IMG/VR virus record: IMGVR_UViG_3300027911_000056
Span: 1-27,869 of that record
Reading direction: 5' to 3' (one strand)
DNA: 27,869 bases
Source of the DNA: a virus
Numbering within the stretch: the stretch's first letter is position 1; each line of letters starts with the position of its first letter. A program made the position numbers and the translations under genes. Under the pieces are notes generated by a model. It worked only from the letters and a program-made list of their open reading frames with translations, was not told where the DNA came from and did no database searches. Shown one piece after another: positions 1-18,389 of the stretch.

Positions 1-172
1 TGTAGTTTCTACTACAACGCCCCCATCAATCCATTTTCATTTCAAAGTCCTTTCTACTGAGAGGCAGGAGGGGAAGAAGGAAACGTCAGCGTGCAACGCT
101 TTTAGTCTCCTTGACTCTTACGGAACGCTAAGCGAGTGCGTTCTCCCCCTTCCACCTCCCAGCTATCGGGTT
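1..172. other. Non-coding left edge with several small inverted repeats
   Basis: I see no supportable gene in this stretch. It holds a palindrome at the very edge (TGTAGT/ACTACA arms, 1-6 and 11-16), a compact hairpin at 88-100 (AGCGT/ACGCT) followed by TTTT on the plus strand, and a 6-bp hairpin at 123-143 (GAACGC/GCGTTC). A purine-rich run lies at about 58-83. It is downstream of the minus-strand gene cluster, so the hairpins could help end that transcript or belong to a regulatory region that continues beyond the window. No clean rho-independent terminator faces the minus strand. Confidence 0.4.
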
Positions 173-1352: not shown

Positions 1353-2108
<756 letters not shown>

Positions 2109-4086: not shown

Positions 4087-4346
4087 GGTTTTATTTTAAG
4101 TTTACCGAAGAAGTACCTACTGAAGCTTTCTGCTTTCTGACACATGCAGTAGAAATGACTAAGTTCAAATCCTTTTAAGTGTGCCACCTTGATTGCAATT
4201 CCCCTCGCAGTCATTGGCTTATACTTTGTCCCTACTCTCTCACTGTTGATAGCTATGAGCATGTTATTGATGATCTCGTCTCTCTCTGAGCGTATCTTCA
4301 GAGTAGTCTGCGGTTTAAACCTAGTGACATCAAATATTATTTCCAT
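4071..4346 (-). CDS. Hypothetical early phage protein, 91 aa
   Basis: The start chosen is ATG 4346 (MEIIFDVTRFKPQTTLKI), which overlaps the end of the HNH gene by 17 bases; the frame is open further but that would lie inside HNH coding sequence. The sequence RSERDEIINNMLIAINSERVGTKYKPMTARGIAIKVAHLKG resembles small phage proteins found near replication genes, with a helix-turn-helix-like middle. Two cysteines (YCMCQ) and a basic C-terminus (GKLKIKPFLKK) are also present. No function can be assigned with confidence. Confidence 0.6.
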   Translation of the reverse strand: MEIIFDVTRFKPQTTLKIRSERDEIINNMLIAINSERVGTKYKPMTARGIAIKVAHLKGFELSHFYCMCQKAESFSRYFFGKLKIKPFLKK

Positions 4347-4617
4347 TTTCTTTATTAAGATGATTTTCTTCTCTTGCCCGCTTTTGATTGCATTTCCAAC
4401 AAGCAATTACTTTCTCAACGTCTTCACCTTTCTTTCTGTGGAACCTACTAATTAAATGATCGAGTGTAGACATATTCTCAGGTGTCTTCAAACCCTTTAA
4501 ATGAAAGTCTGCCTCAGAGGGATATTCAACAGTCTCAATTCCACACCAGTGGCATCTCTTATCTTTCATCCACATGGCAACTCTCCTTGCTTTTCTATAT
4601 TGTCCTGTAAATGACAT
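4330..4617 (-). CDS. HNH endonuclease, 95 aa
   Basis: A compact beta-beta-alpha-metal nuclease. It has C22-x2-C25 (CHWCG), the catalytic D53-H54 in STLDHLISR, and C73-x2-C76 followed by N77 and a basic helix in ACWKCNQKRAREE. Two CxxC pairs framing the DH motif are typical of small phage HNH proteins, which either nick DNA at packaging sites or act as free-standing homing enzymes. It lies about 690 bases left of the terminase genes but on the other strand, in the early cluster. It is the first gene after the structured region 4650-4993. No Shine-Dalgarno site precedes its ATG. The HNH motif is seen; its biological role is not resolved. Confidence 0.8.
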   Translation of the reverse strand: MSFTGQYRKARRVAMWMKDKRCHWCGIETVEYPSEADFHLKGLKTPENMSTLDHLISRFHRKKGEDVEKVIACWKCNQKRAREENHLNKENGNNI

Positions 4618-4649
4618 TTCTATTGCTACTTATTTACAATCCGTCCCTG

Positions 4650-4767
4650 CTCCAATGAGACCGGGAGGAGCGAAGGTCGTCGGAATATGTGTCGCGTGTG
4701 AATCAGTGTCCCCCTGAGTCTGTTGCTAGGCAGACCTTATAGGGCTTTCCTCATATCCTCATTGGAG
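4650..4767 (-). other. Second structured segment, nested inverted repeats
   Basis: An exact 10-bp inverted repeat, CTCCAATGAG (4650-4659) and CTCATTGGAG (4758-4767), encloses a second pairing (GGAATATG 4682-4689 with CATATCC 4752-4758, one bulged base) and an inner hairpin GTCTG/CAGAC (4718-4722, 4731-4735). The stems nest in order, as expected for a folded RNA. It lies between the promoter at 5001-5029 and the HNH gene, so it would be transcribed leftward. It may be a leader element or a separate RNA. No known family is recognised. Confidence 0.45.
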
Positions 4768-4860
4768 GGTGGGATACACCACCATCTGTGAAGATACGAG
4801 GCACAAGGAGTTATTTATCTGGCAATCTCCTAAAACCAGTTTCAACACGCGAGTTTTAGA

Positions 4861-4993
4861 CACGAAAAAAGGCTTTCGTGAGAGCAAGAGTCTTTTTTAC
4901 GGACTCCCACCCTGGCGAAAACCATTTTTGGTAGAAACTTACTTTTCTAATCTACCAAGGATTCGCTCTCACGGCAAGTCATCGAAGACTTAC
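4861..4993 (-). ncRNA. Candidate structured RNA (branched fold) with its own promoter
   Basis: Read on the minus strand from the start predicted by the promoter at 5001-5029, the RNA opens with hairpin A (4993-4987 with 4980-4974, 7 bp, loop UUCGAU). Directly next to it is a 9-bp stem CGUGAGAGC/GCUCUCACG (4973-4965 with 4885-4877), which encloses hairpin B (UUGGUAGA/UCUACCAA, 4958-4951 with 4935-4928) and hairpin C (GAGUC/GACUC, 4906-4902 with 4892-4888). A last hairpin, CACGAAA/UUUCGUG (4880-4874 with 4867-4861), shares bases 4877-4880 with the closing stem, so the two cannot form together. This could be a free RNA or a switching leader for the HNH operon. No known class is recognised. Confidence 0.55.
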
Positions 4994-5000
4994 AAATAAA

Positions 5001-5029
5001 ATTATATAGAAACAGTACCAACCTGTAAA
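5001..5029 (-). promoter_or_regulatory. Near-consensus sigma70 promoter facing the structured RNA
   Basis: Minus-strand TTTACA (5029-5024), 17-base spacer, TATAAT (5006-5001). The predicted start is at about 4993-4994, exactly where hairpin A of the candidate RNA begins. The promoter sits just beyond the stop of the 68-aa gene. An exact TTATCCACA box is ten bases upstream of the -35. Confidence 0.7.
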
Positions 5030-5032
5030 CAA

Positions 5033-5239
5033 TTACACTGTGGATAAATCCCCTTTATATTTATCGAACACATTTCTACGCTCTTGTCTAGCTTTCTGGG
5101 TAATGACATAACAACATATTCCTTTATAAAGCCCTAGAAATCCAGCTTTGCTATTATAAAAGGCTTTTCTCATCTTTTCTGGCGGGAAATATATTTTCCC
5201 CAACTGCCACTCTTCATACGAGAGTATCATTTTATCCAT
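5033..5239 (-). CDS. Hypothetical protein, 68 aa
   Basis: The frame runs from ATG 5239 to TAA 5033. An AGGA seven bases before the ATG could serve as a ribosome site; the internal ATG three codons later is an alternative. The product has aromatic and basic character (YEEWQLGKIYFPPEKMRKAFYN), a short hydrophobic segment (GLYKGICCYVI) and a basic C-terminal half. No family is recognised. It is the first gene of the leftward cluster, transcribed away from the terminase genes across a 66-bp divergent spacer. Confidence 0.55.
   Translation of the reverse strand: MDKMILSYEEWQLGKIYFPPEKMRKAFYNSKAGFLGLYKGICCYVITQKARQERRNVFDKYKGDLSTV
5039..5047 (-). promoter_or_regulatory. DnaA-box-like site TTATCCACA
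   Basis: Exact consensus match on the minus strand, ten bases upstream of the -35 of the structured-RNA promoter and overlapping the last codons of the 68-aa gene. Same orientation and similar distance to a promoter as the copy at 2938-2946. Confidence 0.4.
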
Positions 5240-5266
5240 GCTTAAATCCTAGCACTAAAGCCTTTA

Positions 5267-5297
5267 TTGACCTGTGTATAACTTTGTGTGATATACT
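5267..5297 (+). promoter_or_regulatory. Late/packaging promoter in the divergent spacer, likely leaderless
   Basis: TTGACC (5267-5272), 19-base spacer, TATACT (5292-5297) with an extended -10 (TGA just before it). The long spacer is compensated by the extended -10. The predicted start is about 5304-5305, only a base or two before the ATG of the small terminase at 5306. A TTATACACA site (5273-5281, minus strand), one base off the DnaA consensus, lies inside the spacer. Confidence 0.55.
5273..5281 (-). promoter_or_regulatory. DnaA-box-like site TTATACACA
   Basis: One mismatch from the TTATCCACA consensus, inside the spacer of the terminase promoter. It is the third such site in the left arm. 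Its significance depends on the other two and is weak alone. Confidence 0.3.
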
Positions 5298-5305
5298 TAT
5301 TTGAA

Positions 5306-5656
5306 ATGGAAGACCCGGTAAATATCGGAGCAAATCGGAGAGCTGATGGGACATTCGGCCCTGGAAATGTTGCTAATCCTAATGGAAGACCAAAAGGAAC
5401 AAGTATAAAAGATCGTGTACGTATTTGGCTTGAAGAACATCCTGATGACATGGATGCTTTCGTGAATCATTTTGTTAAAGAGAACAGAGACTTAGCATGG
5501 CAGATGATGGAAGGAAGACCGCCGCAGAAATTACAAGGAGACCCAGACTCACCGCTTCTCTTCGAGGTAATCAATTATGCCAAAAGTAACAATCCCGAAG
5601 GACTACATACCGAGGCAGTACCAACTAACCCTGCTGGAAGCTCCACAGCGCTTTAA
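5306..5656 (+). CDS. terS: Small terminase subunit-like protein, 116 aa
   Basis: Likely DNA-recognition subunit of the packaging motor. The N-terminus carries GTFGPGNVANPNGRPKGTSI (residues about 14-33), whose GRPKG core is a hallmark of a domain common in phage proteins placed just before large terminases; residues 34-80 are helical. ATG 5306 is preferred over the in-frame GTG at 5288, which lies inside the -10 region. There is no ribosome site, matching a leaderless mRNA. The last 26 codons overlap the large terminase start by 80 bases. Assignment rests on position and the GRPKG motif rather than a full family match. Confidence 0.65.
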   Translation: MEDPVNIGANRRADGTFGPGNVANPNGRPKGTSIKDRVRIWLEEHPDDMDAFVNHFVKENRDLAWQMMEGRPPQKLQGDPDSPLLFEVINYAKSNNPEGLHTEAVPTNPAGSSTAL

Positions 5657-11978: not shown

Positions 11979-12002
11979 AAAGGAAGCAGTTATGCACAGA
12001 AG

Positions 12003-12025
12003 ATACCCTTTACAGGGTATTTTTT
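12003..12025 (+). terminator. Rho-independent terminator after the capsid gene
   Basis: Perfect 7-bp hairpin ATACCCT/AGGGTAT (12003-12009, 12014-12020) with a 4-base loop, followed by a T run to 12025. The stem can extend further through A-T and G-T pairs. It ends the scaffold-capsid transcript. Confidence 0.85.
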
Positions 12026-12037
12026 GTTATTTATAAT
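12009..12037 (+). promoter_or_regulatory. Consensus sigma70 promoter overlapping the terminator, leaderless
   Basis: TTTACA (12009-12014), 17-base spacer, TATAAT (12032-12037). The -35 covers the terminator loop and the spacer contains the right arm and T run. The expected start is about 12044, three bases before the ATG at 12047, so the mRNA would have essentially no leader. It drives the glycan cassette. Confidence 0.8.
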
Positions 12038-12046
12038 TAAAGGCAC

Positions 12047-12271
12047 ATGAACAGCGTAACGACGCTTCAGCTGCCAAATGGAATAGTTATCGACATTCTC
12101 GCCAAGAACGGGAAGATTGGCTATACCTTTGAATATGAAGGGCAGAATTATGGAACGGCAGTCAAACCAGAATCAAGAAGCTTGGCTTCTATTTCAGCTG
12201 CCTGCCTTTTGCTTTTGATAAACGCGCAAGAGACTTACAAGGAGCTAACAAAGGAAAAAAATGGAAAATAA
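12047..12271 (+). CDS. Hypothetical protein, first gene of the glycan cassette, 74 aa
   Basis: Starts at ATG 12047 right after the promoter at 12009-12037. The product begins MNSVTTLQLPNGIVIDILAK and appears to be a small alpha/beta protein, with a hydrophobic helix in the middle (ASISAACLLLLINA) too short and polar at its edges to be a clear membrane segment. No family is recognised. Its stop region overlaps the next gene by 11 bases. Confidence 0.6.
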   Translation: MNSVTTLQLPNGIVIDILAKNGKIGYTFEYEGQNYGTAVKPESRSLASISAACLLLLINAQETYKELTKEKNGK

Positions 12272-12592: not shown

Positions 12593-13036
12593 ATGCGAGT
12601 AGTTCTTTTGCAGGGAGCATTTGAAATCCTGAACGCCGGTCACGTTCAAGTATTCAAACGCTGTCGCGCGCAGGGAGATATGCTTATTGTCGCCCTGAAT
12701 ACCAATAAGCTGCTCAAAAAGTACAAAGGAAGGGATGCAGTTCTCCCTTTCAGTCAGAAGAAGAAGATTCTTGAGGCGATTCGATGGGTGGACAAGGTTG
12801 TTCCCGCTCACGATTTCTCTCCCATGAAGCTTCTTGAAAAGTACAACGTGGATGTCTACTGCCTTTCCCGTGAATGGCAGTCAACCAAAGACGCTGAAAT
12901 CGAGTACATGAAGAAGAAAGGAGGCAAAGTCTTCTTTACTCGTGACTACAAGGTCGTGCGCACCAGTGGCATTAAAAAGTCCTTGCTTGCAGAAGCCGAA
13001 GACCAATCGGCTCTCGAAAGGAAGGCTGGGGTGTAA
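12593..13036 (+). CDS. Cytidylyltransferase-like nucleotidyltransferase, 147 aa
   Basis: The fold is that of the TagD/RfaE-type nucleotidyltransferases that activate a sugar or polyol phosphate with CTP or ATP. The family's GxFDxxHxGH appears as GAFEILNAGHVQ (residues 8-19): the second His and Gly are kept, but the first catalytic His is Asn (N14). The C-terminal signature RTxGI is present as RTSGI (123-127). The middle has the conserved basic/aspartate block FSQKKKILEAIRWVDKVVP. A strong AAGGAG ribosome site precedes the ATG. A hairpin (GGGGT/ACCCC, 13028-13032 and 13039-13043) overlaps its stop codon. The Asn substitution may alter activity. Confidence 0.75.
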   Translation: MRVVLLQGAFEILNAGHVQVFKRCRAQGDMLIVALNTNKLLKKYKGRDAVLPFSQKKKILEAIRWVDKVVPAHDFSPMKLLEKYNVDVYCLSREWQSTKDAEIEYMKKKGGKVFFTRDYKVVRTSGIKKSLLAEAEDQSALERKAGV

Positions 13037-13053
13037 AAACCCCATTTCAATAT

Positions 13054-13899
13054 ATGAAAATACATTTAGTTAATTATGAACAGGCGTGGAACGATGGCAT
13101 ACTTTCAAAGTTTGCACGGAGGATGTATGACGAACTGGAAAAGATTAAAGGCGTCGAAGTCTCTATTGGGAATGTTCCCGACCCTGAAGCTGACATCGTG
13201 CATCACATAAACTACGCTTCATATCGTCATTCCAGCACTATCAATACTCTGATGGTGACGCATATAGACACGCCAAGTAAAAAGGAAAATTTGCTCAAAG
13301 GAATGGAGACGGCTGATATGGGTATTTGCATGTCTTCTTCCCTACCAGATATTCTTACAAAAGAGCTACGTATTCCAAAGGAGAAACTCTCTTATGTTCT
13401 TCCGGCGCATGATTGCAAACCACGACGCTTTCAGATCGTGGCAATCTTAACAAATGTCTATCCTGACGGCTGCAAGCGAGAGGGAATGTTTACTGAATTG
13501 GTCAAAACGCTTGATAAGAACAAGTGGGCTTTTAGAATAATGGGAAGCGGATGGAATGACATTCTTGTCCCTCTTGTTGCCGACGGATTACAGGTGGATT
13601 ACTTCCCAAGTTTTGACGCAGAAAATCACCAGCGCATCTTAGAGTCTTCCGATTATTGTCTTTATTTTGGAAAGGATGAGGGGTCTATGGGCATCCTAGA
13701 CGCTGCTAATGCTGGCCTCAAGACTATTTCGACACCACAAGGCTTCCACTTGGATATTGGATTGGATTACGTTTTCGATACACAGGAAGAACTGAACAAA
13801 ATTTTCAAGAAGCTCAGCAGGAATAAAGTTGGGGATTTGTCTTGGAAGACATATACCAATGAACATATAAAACTATGGAAACAACTCCTAAGAAAATAA
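13054..13899 (+). CDS. GT-B glycosyltransferase, 281 aa
   Basis: A short GT4-like enzyme transferring a sugar from a nucleotide donor. The N-terminal half binds the acceptor; the C-terminal half contains the donor-binding pattern around residues 205-240, KDEGSMGILDAANAGLKTIS, where an acidic EGSMG segment replaces the usual E-x7-E of GT4. RIMGSGWNDILVPLVADGLQ upstream corresponds to the Rossmann strand and loop. No signal peptide or membrane segment is seen. The start has no ribosome site; the end overlaps the methyltransferase by 25 bases. Donor and acceptor cannot be named. Confidence 0.75.
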   Translation: MKIHLVNYEQAWNDGILSKFARRMYDELEKIKGVEVSIGNVPDPEADIVHHINYASYRHSSTINTLMVTHIDTPSKKENLLKGMETADMGICMSSSLPDILTKELRIPKEKLSYVLPAHDCKPRRFQIVAILTNVYPDGCKREGMFTELVKTLDKNKWAFRIMGSGWNDILVPLVADGLQVDYFPSFDAENHQRILESSDYCLYFGKDEGSMGILDAANAGLKTISTPQGFHLDIGLDYVFDTQEELNKIFKKLSRNKVGDLSWKTYTNEHIKLWKQLLRK

Positions 13900-14375
13900 A
13901 TCTCGGTTCAGGAAAAGATTACCGCGACGGCTACACCAACGTCGATAATCTTTCCATGTGGAAGGGCATGGTGGACGTGAATGCCGATTTAAAAATGCTG
14001 AAATATGAAGGTGGAGATTTGGACGAAATCCTGGCTTCTCATATCGCCATGTACATAGATACGATTGAGATGCCGATTCTCCTTAAAAGGTGGCTCGGGT
14101 GGCTGAAAGAAGGAGGCAAGCTCGTCATTGAGACAGGCGATTTGAAGAAGGTGGCAAAGATCATTGCCTATTCTGAGAAACCGGAGGAGATAAACGGCAC
14201 TAATGGAGTAATGCAATTGTTTGGCTGGGCTGAGACAAAGGGGCATACTTGGGCATGGTGTTATGAGACGCTAGAGCCTCTTTTGCTCGCTACTGGCTTC
14301 AAGAAGATTGAGCGAATTGACGGAGGCTATCACAACAGGCCGGAGAGGGACATAACAATAACAGCATGGAAATAA
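13875..14375 (+). CDS. SAM-dependent methyltransferase-like protein, 166 aa
   Basis: A class I methyltransferase with motif I as INLGSGKDYRDGYTNVDN (residues 8-25), where the Gly-rich turn binds S-adenosylmethionine, followed by an acidic residue in DVNADLKML. The strand-helix order continues through EILASHIAMYID and WLKEGGKLVIETGDL. In a glycan cassette it would methylate a sugar hydroxyl, though protein or small-molecule substrates are possible. It overlaps the genes on both sides (25 and 10 bases), so translation is probably linked. Confidence 0.75.
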   Translation: METTPKKINLGSGKDYRDGYTNVDNLSMWKGMVDVNADLKMLKYEGGDLDEILASHIAMYIDTIEMPILLKRWLGWLKEGGKLVIETGDLKKVAKIIAYSEKPEEINGTNGVMQLFGWAETKGHTWAWCYETLEPLLLATGFKKIERIDGGYHNRPERDITITAWK

Positions 14376-15328
14376 AAAAGTGCAATGTCGCAGTCGTGGG
14401 CGGCGCAGGCTTTCTTGGAAGCCACCTCGTAAATCACCTTATCGAGGATAGATTCTGCAAGGTGCTTGTCTTGGACAATCTCATAGCAGGCCATCGCAAG
14501 TTCATTCACCCTAAAGCCAAGTTTGAATGGTGCGATATTACCCATTCTGAAAGCGAGCTTAGAAAGTTTTTCGAGCAATACGAGATAGACTTTGTTTTCA
14601 ATTACGCCGCTTCACCCTATATTCCTGTCTCATTTGAAAGGCCGCTCCATGTTTTTGATATAAACGCTTCGGGAGCCTTGAAAGTGATTAACGCCGCGCA
14701 GGCAGCCGGGGTAAAAGGCATATTGCAGGTATCCTCTGCTGAAATCTACGGGGACGCTCCTGAACATAAGATTGACGAGAATTGGCCAGCACGTCCTCAT
14801 TCGACGTATGGCTCGGCAAAGCTTGCGATTGACTGCCTTGTGCAATCTCGCTTTAAAGAGGCTGGGACGCCCTGCATTGCGCTCAGGCAGTTTAACTGCG
14901 TAGGAGAGCGTGAGACGCACGAATACGTCATACCGGTCATTATAGAGCAATTGGCGAGAGGTTCTACGGTCAAGCTTGGTAACAATTCCTTTAGGGACTT
15001 CCAGTATGCAGGCGATGCCGTCCGAATGGCAGTAGAACTACTGGAAAAAGGCCAATTCGGGGAGGTCTATAACATGGGAAGCGAGGAGGGAATCAAGATG
15101 TATGACCTCGCAGCTCTTATCGGCGAGCTTATGGAAGTAGATTGCGAGGTAGAAGTAGACCCTAAGCGCATGAGGCCGTGGGAAATTTGGAGCTTACTTT
15201 CTGATAATACAAAATTGTATAAAGTTATCGACTATCGCCCAAAAACTTCATTAAGAGAAGCTCTCAAAAAGACGATAAAAGATTTTCACGATAATGGAAA
15301 TAAATGGTGCTATGAAAAAAATAACTAG
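14366..15328 (+). CDS. Extended SDR sugar epimerase/dehydratase, 320 aa
   Basis: NAD(P)-dependent nucleotide-sugar enzyme with the Rossmann motif GGAGFLG (residues 12-18), DITHSE after the second strand, the catalytic Ser in SSAEIYGD (123-130) and Y148-x3-K152 in YGSAK. This covers the GDP-mannose 4,6-dehydratase and UDP-glucose 4-epimerase group. A dehydratase followed by the nearby DegT-type aminotransferase would give a 4-amino-4,6-dideoxy sugar, but the motifs cannot separate epimerase from dehydratase. The C-terminus appears intact though shifted by overlap with the homing endonuclease that starts 17 bases before its end. Confidence 0.85.
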   Translation: MEIKKCNVAVVGGAGFLGSHLVNHLIEDRFCKVLVLDNLIAGHRKFIHPKAKFEWCDITHSESELRKFFEQYEIDFVFNYAASPYIPVSFERPLHVFDINASGALKVINAAQAAGVKGILQVSSAEIYGDAPEHKIDENWPARPHSTYGSAKLAIDCLVQSRFKEAGTPCIALRQFNCVGERETHEYVIPVIIEQLARGSTVKLGNNSFRDFQYAGDAVRMAVELLEKGQFGEVYNMGSEEGIKMYDLAALIGELMEVDCEVEVDPKRMRPWEIWSLLSDNTKLYKVIDYRPKTSLREALKKTIKDFHDNGNKWCYEKNN

Positions 15329-15761
15329 AAAAGGAGTTGAATTTGAGATTGATAAACAAGACGAGTCTGTTGTTGATAATTTAGTTTGGAGGATAGACCA
15401 CGGCTATCTTAGGAACAAGAGTGTTTATCTTCATAGGATGCTTCTCGATTTTCCTAAAGGTTGCATTGACCATATAGATGGAAATCCATTAAATAACAAG
15501 CGAAATAATTTAAGGATTTGTAGTCAGCAGGAAAATACGATGAATAAGCGTAAATCCCGCAATTCAAGTTCAAAGTTTAAAGGAGTAAGCTGGATTAAAA
15601 GAGACCGGAGATGGTACGCATGTATAAATAAAGATTACAAAACATATTCACTCGGAACATTTAAAGATGAAATCGATGCAGCGAAAGCTTATGACAAGAA
15701 AGCAATAGAAATGTTTGGTAAATATGCAAAAACAAACCTATGCAACCCTATCAAGAATTAG
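15312..15761 (+). CDS. HNH-AP2 homing endonuclease, 149 aa
   Basis: Free-standing homing nuclease inserted into the glycan cassette. The HNH part has H41 (VYLHRMLLDFPKG), D53-H54 (IDHIDGN) and N61/N66 (PLNNKRNNLRIC); an AP2 DNA-binding domain follows at about residues 87-142 (FKGVSWIKRDRRWYACI... SLGTFKDEIDAAKAYDKKA). The start chosen is ATG 15312 (MKKITRKG); an in-frame ATG at 15294 is an alternative. The gene is visibly more A+T-rich than its neighbours and overlaps both, 17 bases with the epimerase and 22 with the aminotransferase. It probably spread by homing and is not part of sugar synthesis. Confidence 0.88.
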   Translation: MKKITRKGVEFEIDKQDESVVDNLVWRIDHGYLRNKSVYLHRMLLDFPKGCIDHIDGNPLNNKRNNLRICSQQENTMNKRKSRNSSSKFKGVSWIKRDRRWYACINKDYKTYSLGTFKDEIDAAKAYDKKAIEMFGKYAKTNLCNPIKN

Positions 15762-16630
15762 AACAAAAATATGCTGCATTTGTTGGCGCTAAGCACGCTG
15801 TTTCTTGCAATAGCGGTACTGCTGCTTTACACCTTGGACTACTTGCTCTTGGAGTTGGCAAAGGAGATGAGGTTATCATCCCTGACTTCACGATGGCCGT
15901 TTGCGGCTTCGCTGTATCTTACTGCAATGCTACTCCCGTATTTGTGGATTGCGATGACAGTCTTTGCATGGATTGGCGCTTGATAGAAAAGAAGATAACC
16001 AGGAAGACGAAGGCAATCATGGCCGTACACATTTACGGCAGGCTTTGCAATATGAAGGAGATTATTAGGATTGCGAAGAAGCATAAACTAAAGGTTATTG
16101 AGGACGCTTGCGAGGCCCAGGGAGCCGTTTACAAATCAAAAGCAGACATAACCTGCTATTCATTCTATGAAAACAAAATCATCCACGCGGAAGAAGGCGG
16201 TATCTGTACGACGGATAATAAAAAGTACGCTGAAAGAATCGCTTATCTCAAAAATATGGCTTTTGGTGAAAAGCATGATTACTTCCACAAGGAAATAGGC
16301 TTTAATTATCGAATGCCTAACTCGCAGGCAAAATTAGCCTTGCAATCTTTGAAAGAAGTAAAAAAAGAGTTAAGGCGTCGTCGAAAGTTTGAATCTTTTT
16401 GTCGGGAAACTTTGCCAAAAGAATGCACAACGCTTCCTAAGCGAGATGTTGTTTGGGTCTATGATTATTTAGGTGAACCTGTTAGGGGTTTTATCACTGA
16501 TGGAATTGAAACATTGGTACAAACACGCCCCTTTTTTAAACCCCTTTCCTCCTTTCCGATGTATGGCGGCAAGTGTCAGTCTCCTAAGGCTAAGTGGTAT
16601 TCCGAAAGGGGACATTATATAAAATTATGA
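15740..16630 (+). CDS. DegT/DnrJ-type sugar aminotransferase, short at both ends, 296 aa
   Basis: PLP-dependent enzyme making amino sugars from keto sugars. The core is intact: CNSGTAALHLGLLALGVGKG (residues 23-42), D122 in VIEDACEAQGA that contacts the cofactor, and the Schiff-base lysine K146 in YSFYENKIIHAEEGG. It starts at a point corresponding to about 35-40 residues into a typical family member, because the homing endonuclease lies directly upstream, and it ends at SERGHYIKL where relatives usually go on by about 25-35 residues. The next gene overlaps its stop as ATGA. It may be active as a shorter form or impaired. Confidence 0.8.
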   Translation: MQPYQELEQKYAAFVGAKHAVSCNSGTAALHLGLLALGVGKGDEVIIPDFTMAVCGFAVSYCNATPVFVDCDDSLCMDWRLIEKKITRKTKAIMAVHIYGRLCNMKEIIRIAKKHKLKVIEDACEAQGAVYKSKADITCYSFYENKIIHAEEGGICTTDNKKYAERIAYLKNMAFGEKHDYFHKEIGFNYRMPNSQAKLALQSLKEVKKELRRRRKFESFCRETLPKECTTLPKRDVVWVYDYLGEPVRGFITDGIETLVQTRPFFKPLSSFPMYGGKCQSPKAKWYSERGHYIKL

Positions 16631-17271
16631 GCAACGTCACTCTCTACACCGTAATCACGAATGATAAAGACCCGATAATGGAGCAGGATTTTCCCATTAC
16701 TCGTTTCATAGATTCCTACGATAAGTTCAAAGACCCGCGTCGCAATTCTCGCATTCAAAAGATTCTCGCTCATAAATATATAAATACCGAGTTTTCCATT
16801 TACATGGACGGTAATATGAAACTGCTCGTTTCACCTGAAGAAATAATCAAGCGGTATATGGACGGCTATGACATGATGTTATTCACTCACGGCCTGAGAG
16901 ATTGCATTTATGACGAGGCGATGACTTGTGCCAAGCTCGGACTCGATGACCCAGAGCTGATTATCGAACAGGCCAAGCACTATGAAGACATGGAGTATGG
17001 AAAGCATAAAGGGCTTTTGCAGGGCGGATTCATCGTCCGAAGGCATAACAAGCGCGTAGAGGCGTTTAACGAGGCATGGTGGGCTGATTATTGCCGATAT
17101 TCGCGACGTGACCAGCTCTCTCTCATGCCAGCAGCGGACAAGGCAGGAGTTATCATCAACGCTGTCCCTAGAATGTGGCAAGTCTTGCCAAATGGTACTG
17201 CCGTAATAGGAGATGTCCTGCTTACCACTTTCCATAAGAACTTCGAGGGTAATTTCAACGAAAAGAAATGA
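16627..17271 (+). CDS. DUF616-type glycosyltransferase, 214 aa
   Basis: A GT-A-like transferase recognisable by the family's ordered motifs: YMDGNMKLL (residues about 57-65, DxD-like metal-binding region), RDCIYDEAMTC (about 88-98), the GL-x2-GGFIVRRHN block (about 127-140) and WWADYCRYSRRDQLSLMPA (about 151-169). This family includes plant TOD1/MUCI70 proteins and many bacterial and phage members. The sugar is unknown. The start at 16627 overlaps the aminotransferase stop (ATGA); an earlier ATG at 16594 would lie within that gene. Confidence 0.8.
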   Translation: MSNVTLYTVITNDKDPIMEQDFPITRFIDSYDKFKDPRRNSRIQKILAHKYINTEFSIYMDGNMKLLVSPEEIIKRYMDGYDMMLFTHGLRDCIYDEAMTCAKLGLDDPELIIEQAKHYEDMEYGKHKGLLQGGFIVRRHNKRVEAFNEAWWADYCRYSRRDQLSLMPAADKAGVIINAVPRMWQVLPNGTAVIGDVLLTTFHKNFEGNFNEKK

Positions 17272-18389
17272 AGATACTTTTTTATAGAAATGATTACGCC
17301 GCTAATGTGAACCGCAAGCTGGAAGACGGCTATGGTGGCGTAGGGGCTTACCGTATCATCTATCCTTCCCGATACGCCAAAGGGCATGATGTGGATGTAG
17401 TGGGGATAAACCTGTCTAAAAAAGGGGAGAGTTCTGAAAAGAAATGGTCACGAATCTTCACTGACTACGATGTATTTTGGACTACCTATTTCTATTCGCC
17501 AGAAGAGGCAAGTGCCATGTTCTACCATAGGGATAAGTTCAAGAAGAAAGTAATCATTGACCTTGATGACAACTATTTGGATGTTGCAAAGAGCCATCCT
17601 CTATACGACAAGCTAAAGGAAACTAAAAAGGACAGAGCATTCACTTCCACCATTTTGTCCTTTGCGGACGTTATAACCGTTTCGACCGAACCGCTGAAGC
17701 AGAAAATTGCGGAACACATGAAGAAGGTCTATGGATTGGAAAAAACAATCATAGTTATCCCCAACATGAACGAAAGGAAAGATTGGGACTTTCCTGCCGC
17801 TCCTAAAGACACAAATAAGTTCATTATCGGCTACTCGGGTTCCAATTCCCATTACGACGACCTTAAAATGGTCTTCCCGGCGATTGCCAAGATAATGGAT
17901 AAATATCCGCATGTCTATTTCGAGAGCATGGGGGCAATAGGCAAAGAAAACATCGAGCTATTCAGCTGTTTCAGCGAAAAGGCCAAGCTTCGGTGCGACA
18001 TTATGCCTTCTACTTGGACTTTCGGAGAATACCCAAAGCACCTTTCGACGATGAAATGGGATATTGGAATAGCTCCGCTTGTCGATACGGCCTTCACGCG
18101 ATGCAAGAGCCACATCAAGTTCATGGAGTATGCAATGTATAAGATTCCGACGATTGCCTCGCGCGTGTATCCTTATTACGTCCCTTGTTTCGGCAGGGAA
18201 GTGATAACTCACGATGAAACGGGAATGCTTGCGAAGCCTTCTGAGTGGTTTGGAATGATTGAAGAAATGATTTTGAATAAGGATAAGAGGGAAAATCTTG
18301 GAAGAAACGCTCACAAGCATGTGATTGAGAACTGGCAATATGATAAGCAATTTTCAGATGCAATAGATAAAGCCCTAAAATCTTTATAA
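17268..18389 (+). CDS. GT4-like glycosyltransferase, 373 aa
   Basis: GT-B enzyme with N-terminal GGVGAYRIIYPSRYAKGHDV (residues about 24-43), a shape typical of GT4 acceptor domains, and a C-terminal donor domain with IGYSGSNSHYDDL (about 192-204) and SHIKFMEYAMYKIPTIAS (about 284-301), where KFMEYA carries the conserved Glu of the E-x7-E motif. It ends ENWQYDKQFSDAIDKAL, a usual GT4 terminus. It is the last gene of the cassette and is followed by two hairpins. No membrane segment is visible, so it acts in the cytoplasm. Confidence 0.85.
   Translation: MKILFYRNDYAANVNRKLEDGYGGVGAYRIIYPSRYAKGHDVDVVGINLSKKGESSEKKWSRIFTDYDVFWTTYFYSPEEASAMFYHRDKFKKKVIIDLDDNYLDVAKSHPLYDKLKETKKDRAFTSTILSFADVITVSTEPLKQKIAEHMKKVYGLEKTIIVIPNMNERKDWDFPAAPKDTNKFIIGYSGSNSHYDDLKMVFPAIAKIMDKYPHVYFESMGAIGKENIELFSCFSEKAKLRCDIMPSTWTFGEYPKHLSTMKWDIGIAPLVDTAFTRCKSHIKFMEYAMYKIPTIASRVYPYYVPCFGREVITHDETGMLAKPSEWFGMIEEMILNKDKRENLGRNAHKHVIENWQYDKQFSDAIDKALKSL

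Follow-up and report, generated by a model that had tools for sequence, protein, structure and literature searches.

Introduction

GOLLD and ROOL are large, ornate phage RNAs, and the HEARO/IsrB RNA offers a further likeness, which we treat as a lead only. On the side of promoter control, dnaA is autoregulated, and DnaA-regulated sigma70 promoters exist. In the early phage operons of HK022, the put RNAs (putL and putR) act as nascent-RNA antiterminators (PMC9378689). Each is about 70 nt long and has two stem-loops, and the copies are related in sequence. The putL element is located immediately downstream of PL and is paired from nucleotide 3 onwards; put-type read-through of terminators requires no phage protein and proceeds via the zinc-binding domain of the RNA polymerase beta' subunit (PMC9378689).

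Here we describe a candidate structured, apparently non-coding RNA on the minus strand (4730-4993) of DNA from a phage whose host is uncultured, the whole 27,869-nt stretch of which (IMG/VR record IMGVR_UViG_3300027911_000056, positions 1 to 27,869) is referred to as the window. As in the put RNAs, stem-loops start at about the predicted +1, right after the promoter; unlike them, the RNA here is 260-376 nt long, contains six or more helices and is predicted to switch folds. HK022 putL appears to be its nearest known analogue in kind, a likeness from which we claim no membership. The promoter resembles DnaA-regulated sigma70 promoters in carrying a DnaA box close upstream of the -35 hexamer, and differs from them in that one narrow box distance is found in many phage promoters, where regulation by DnaA is putative. 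With GOLLD, ROOL and HEARO the locus shares a long structured non-coding phage RNA with an HNH gene downstream, but no Rfam match names these families (E up to 10), the HNH protein is a plain one of 95 aa, and repeats are absent.

Results

A near-consensus promoter with an upstream DnaA-box-like element

An earlier note, made from the letters of the DNA alone, had proposed a TTTACA-17-TATAAT promoter on the minus strand, with a start on the first base of a 7-bp hairpin. Both elements are present at 5029-5001, the -35 hexamer TTTACA occupying 5024-5029 and, across a 17-nt spacer, the -10 hexamer TATAAT occupying 5001-5006. Just two sites in the 27,869-nt window match TTGACA-16..18-TATAAT with at most one mismatch, where a Markov model expects 0.45. 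The predicted +1 is U4994/G4993, 7-8 nt past the -10, and hairpin P1 begins at 4993, in line with that proposal.

A DnaA-box-like element, TTATCCACA, lies further upstream on the same strand (5039-5047), such that the exact DnaA-box sequence TTATNCACA starts 18 nt before the -35 (5047 to 5029). We defined a class of promoters with TTATNCACA located 15-19 nt upstream of the -35, into which the RNA promoter falls. The other near-consensus promoter of the window, on the plus strand, has its box at 11990 and its -35 at 12009 (offset 19 nt), and a third good promoter, on the minus strand, has its box at 2946 and its -35 at 2931 (offset 15 nt). A second exact DnaA box near the RNA promoter occupies 5273-5281.

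The same arrangement was found in related phages, represented by loci fetched by similarity of the terminase TerL. Promoters with at most two mismatches accompanied 11/82 boxes at an offset of 8-23, compared with 0-2 in each of the other bins between -200 and 311. Conversely, exact boxes occurred seven times at offsets 15-19 from 257 near-consensus promoters and eight times across the remaining offsets between 9 and 299; three of the seven come from the window that suggested the test, and the other four are independent. Examples of TTATNCACA-promoters in the TerL-related loci are L075:5592, L084:2696, L052:3813 (minus) and L070:5325 (minus). Among about 122 promoters of other viruses, picked by another motif, the box was found in none. 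Judged by sequence, the RNA promoter is thus a member of a recurrent box-plus-promoter class, at whose box DnaA would putatively bind, and support for the promoter now exceeds that in the earlier note because this class recurs in related phages. The class provides a firmer footing for an orphan RNA, and is itself of interest. We also considered TGTAAG at +1 as a common start of stable RNAs (two RNAs in the window and a tRNA in L083), and rejected it, as the motif is widespread in phage promoters.

Box-promoters precede apparently leaderless genes, a tRNA and structured non-coding stretches

In several relatives, as well as at window position 12047, an ATG lies 5-10 nt past the -10, as for leaderless mRNAs. 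At the latter site (11990-12047, plus strand), the box-promoter TTTACA-17-TATAAT overlaps a terminator-like hairpin that follows the major capsid gene, and the next gene has its ATG 9 nt past the -10. Elsewhere, a box-promoter immediately precedes a phage tRNA-Gly(TCC) gene (L083:2788-2922), so the class can serve a stable RNA.

In three further phage loci (L075, L052 and L086), no gene is called in the 140-294 nt beyond the promoter, and these stretches fold with z-scores of -3.2 to -6.2. These strongly folding non-coding stretches (L075:5645-5900, L052:3762-3626 on the minus strand, and L086:1713-1955) differ from one another, with GGGGTAAAC common to those of L052 and L086. Since these promoters, too, precede folding stretches, the RNA described here is one of several long structured leaders or non-coding RNAs, each unique in sequence. 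Within the window itself, the minus-strand region 2770-2946 comprises the box TTATCCACA (2946-2938), the promoter TTGACT-16-TATACT (2931-2904), a structured non-coding leader of roughly 128 nt (z about -3) and then a 62-aa ORF.

The promoter unit is enriched in Patescibacteria

We searched for the box-plus-promoter pattern in 287 genomes of the Patescibacteria, the phylum of a Gracilibacteria MAG, and by our own count found 95 occurrences, compared with 14 for a reversed-pattern control. Shifting the box 20 nt further out left 46 occurrences, an approximately two-fold enrichment for the spacing, and restricting the pattern to exact TTGACA gave about 55 versus 15 by eye. No enrichment of the unit was seen in Pseudomonadota (8 versus 6 for the control in 100 genomes from the phylum of an Alphaproteobacteria MAG), and 59 genomes from the phylum of a Victivallales MAG yielded 7 versus 2. 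Three of the Patescibacteria matches are dnaA's own promoters, with the ATG 6-9 nt past the -10 (L088-L090). As the promoter unit recurs in both related phages and Patescibacteria, transcription from 4993 on the minus strand is likely, judging from these sequence patterns.

The counts are consistent with a Patescibacteria host for the phage, without proving it; because TerL relatives in these genomes are rare and distant (3/287, all distant), the host can only be inferred. A literature search found no paper linking Patescibacteria, promoters and DnaA boxes. In three Patescibacteria genomes (L095, L096 and L097), box-promoters are followed by a common leader, GTTCC-TTTTTGAGAGGG..GGAAC, which has another TGTGGATAA box at its end and is possibly a conserved host leader RNA.

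The region downstream of the promoter is unusually structured

The five stems that the earlier note had named (7, 9, 8, 5 and 7 bp) are all found at their positions on the minus strand, and their pairs are Watson-Crick throughout except for one U-G in P1. P1, at +1, spans 4974-4993 (GUAAGUC/GACUUGC, 4993-4987/4980-4974). The P2 domain follows (4877-4973), closed by a 9-bp stem (CGUGAGAGC/GCUCUCACG, 4973-4965/4885-4877), and contains the 8-bp hairpin P3 (4928-4958; UUGGUAGA/UCUACCAA, 4958-4951/4935-4928) and the 5-bp hairpin P4 (4888-4906; GAGUC/GACUC, 4906-4902/4892-4888). The 7-bp hairpin P5 (4861-4880; CACGAAA/UUUCGUG, 4880-4874/4867-4861) overlaps the closing stem, as had been observed, with CACG common to P5 and the 3' arm of P2.

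Over this 133-nt segment (4861-4993, minus strand), the predicted folding energy is -47.4 kcal/mol, with z-scores of -5.1 to -5.2 against 200 or 300 dinucleotide shuffles, none of which was equally stable; the fold thus withstands the comparison with shuffled sequence that the earlier note had proposed, and it is the top score in a sliding fold scan covering the first 12 kb of the window. The structured stretch is also longer than described there, extending to about 4730 and including a long hairpin, P6 (4749-4801), with a 12-bp outer stem of pair probability 1.00. For the whole of 4730-4993 the z-score is -5.8, with 0/300 shuffles as good, and folding of the adjoining 4618-4750 is ordinary (z +0.5).

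The strand is not settled by folding alone, because the plus strand of the same 133 nt also folds well (z -4.5). Across 4730-4993, the minus-strand fold exceeds the plus-strand fold in stability by 13.5 kcal/mol, where 5.0 is expected from composition (z -1.9); in the folding model the energies lean towards the minus strand without proving it, and the promoter is more telling in this respect. The long-range helices I7 and I4 (AGGGTGGGA/TCCCACCCT and CTCCAATGAG/CTCATTGGAG) may form pseudoknots; their probability in nested folding is 0, and repeats of this kind occur near chance expectation.

Two mutually exclusive folds are predicted to succeed one another

The overlap between P5 and the closing stem had led to the proposal of two mutually exclusive folds, which is borne out in the model with the amendment that the closed fold is a transient intermediate, not an end state. 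When forced on the 133 nt, the closed fold with its 9-bp stem reaches -43.7 kcal/mol, versus -47.4 kcal/mol for the minimum-energy fold. As the transcript is lengthened, the pair probability of the closed fold, 0.95-0.98 at 117-120 nt, drops to 0.20 by 126 nt and to 0.01 by 133 nt, at which length P2 is replaced by P5 (0.79) and a 12-bp extended form of P4 (4902-4913 with 4881-4892; 0.98). In transcripts beyond 133 nt, P5 becomes less certain (0.02-0.5). This order is derived from thermodynamic folding of growing prefixes, a crude model of kinetics, in which the closed and extended-P4 folds would occur in succession.

An orphan RNA with no terminator found before the HNH gene

The next gene downstream encodes a plain HNH protein of 95 aa (4330-4617, minus strand; PHROG match 5e-5), and no leaderless promoter was detected in front of it. 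The minus strand from 5000 to the HNH start (4617/4618) yielded no terminator-like site. Nor was an intrinsic attenuator or terminator leader, with a G+C-rich hairpin and a U run, found over this stretch, in which UCUAAAAC follows P5. A 76-aa ORF on the plus strand (4769-4999) matched no family and was taken as chance, and an 8-nt repeat, CCTGTAAA, at 4604-4611 and 5022-5029 was dismissed as a target-site duplication, its occurrence being at chance level.

The earlier note had recognised no known RNA class, and none emerged from our comparisons. Rfam 15 gave 0 matches above the gathering threshold in the whole window, and across 4300-5560 only chance matches (E 1.4-10), with GOLLD, ROOL and HEARO not among them. 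Covariance models found no group I intron or HEARO core, ARAGORN no tRNA or tmRNA, and a repeat search no tandem or interspaced repeats of a TIGR or CRISPR array.

Searches of 86 TerL-related loci with blastn, nhmmer and a covariance model built on the single sequence gave no homologue of the RNA. None was found among phage and plasmid records either, or in 156 pattern-seeded viral contigs. The latter comprise 36 from IMG/VR, seeded by two 15-mers of the switch strands, and 120 seeded by promoter plus TGTAAG, with blastn and nhmmer run on all and the covariance model on 80. A 20-nt match recurring in four IMG/VR contigs lies inside an open reading frame and was taken as chance. In the 287 Patescibacteria genomes no homologue was accepted; the best match (L257, covariance model, rough E 2e-5) lies antisense to a ribosome-biogenesis-GTPase-like gene and was rejected. 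A pattern scan of viral contigs also found no relatives of the HNH, 68-aa and 218-aa early proteins. The RNA is unclassified, an orphan without a homologue in the databases searched. Of the earlier suggestion of a regulatory or free phage RNA, what holds is a structured RNA that is probably transcribed from a promoter of its own and matches no known family; since no terminator-like site was found, it may be the leader of the HNH/early operon rather than free-standing.

Discussion

Our results comprise the DNA elements, the statistics of folding, the modelled succession of folds and the recurring promoter class; what we infer for this RNA, from its transcription and cis mode to a regulatory effect or any other function, would run as follows. 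A leftward sigma70-type promoter with an upstream DnaA-box-like element would fire at 4993/4994, and its transcript would be structured and apparently non-coding as far as about 4730 or beyond, most likely reading on into the HNH gene and early operon. P1 would form first, the 9-bp P2 domain would close once the transcript reached about 117-120 nt, and about 6-16 nt later extended P4 and P5 would displace it. Such timed refolding would suit an element that acts on the elongating polymerase or gates early-gene read-through. As modelled, a cis-acting nascent-RNA leader of the HNH/early operon is our working interpretation, which we hold tentatively and put at somewhat below an even chance. It draws on the strong promoter, the hairpin at +1, the modelled refolding and the failure to find a terminator ahead of the HNH gene; against it stand the lack of any homologue, and hence of covariation, in the databases searched, the crude treatment of kinetics by prefix folding and the nearly equal folding of the plus strand relative to its shuffles.

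The RNA could instead act in trans, as a free-standing phage RNA of about 260-376 nt that binds, for example, a protein of the host or the phage; processing, or a terminator that is Rho-like or of an unrecognised kind, would then generate its 3' end. It would have its own promoter, of a class that also precedes a tRNA (L083) and long structured non-coding stretches (L075, L052, L086), and the unusual folding ends at about 4730, ahead of the HNH gene. Yet trans-acting RNA classes are often shared, and no homologue was found; moreover, with no leaderless promoter seen ahead of it, the HNH gene may depend on the RNA transcript. Because no intrinsic terminator was found before that gene, we slightly favour the cis leader over a free RNA, which we regard as unlikely though worth serious consideration.

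A long untranslated leader or decayed insertion, in which the inverted repeats have no selected function, would agree with the lack of any detected homologue or conservation, and chance alone would give a region this large single perfect inverted repeats of 8-10 bp; the whole fold, however, beats all 300 shuffles and follows a near-consensus promoter of a recurrent class, and we hold this explanation to be distinctly improbable. We give still less weight to a DNA-level origin or regulatory element, in which the DnaA boxes and inverted repeats would work as DNA and the transcript would be a primer or by-product. The exact DnaA boxes at 5039-5047 and 5273-5281, a pair lying within 240 bp, the cumulative GC-skew minimum at about 5000 and the folding of both strands would fit such an element, but gene direction also switches at the skew minimum, the box-to--35 spacing across phages is narrow, and the boxes at other window promoters (2946 and 11990) point to transcription.

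On a bolder reading, the RNA might represent a phage RNA class of its own. It would be a nascent-RNA switch that heads the early operon of Patescibacteria phages under a host-DnaA-controlled promoter, coupling early transcription to the state of replication in a host with a tiny genome, a proposal that in its entirety we consider very doubtful. If it were true, a phage group with scarcely any experimental work behind it would gain a defined promoter architecture with starts that can be predicted, leaderless messages and one or more long structured leaders. It would also become testable whether Patescibacteria phages read host DnaA, and whether early genes come under nascent-RNA control in phages other than the lambdoid ones. 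Host assignment of such viruses may likewise be aided by the promoter signature.

Several further features came to light. Very strong folding with a long nested hairpin occurs in two near-identical phage contigs (L053:1802-2130, z -8.2; L055:265-590, z -5.2), before a small zinc-ribbon-like ORF and with no Rfam match. In the window, a 251-aa early protein (1353-2108, minus strand) contains a long tract composed almost purely of Ala, Tyr and Asp, and clustered genes of sugar-nucleotide and glycosyl-transfer type (12593-18389, plus strand; the cytidylyltransferase named by Pfam, the rest by eye) are found inside the phage structural region.
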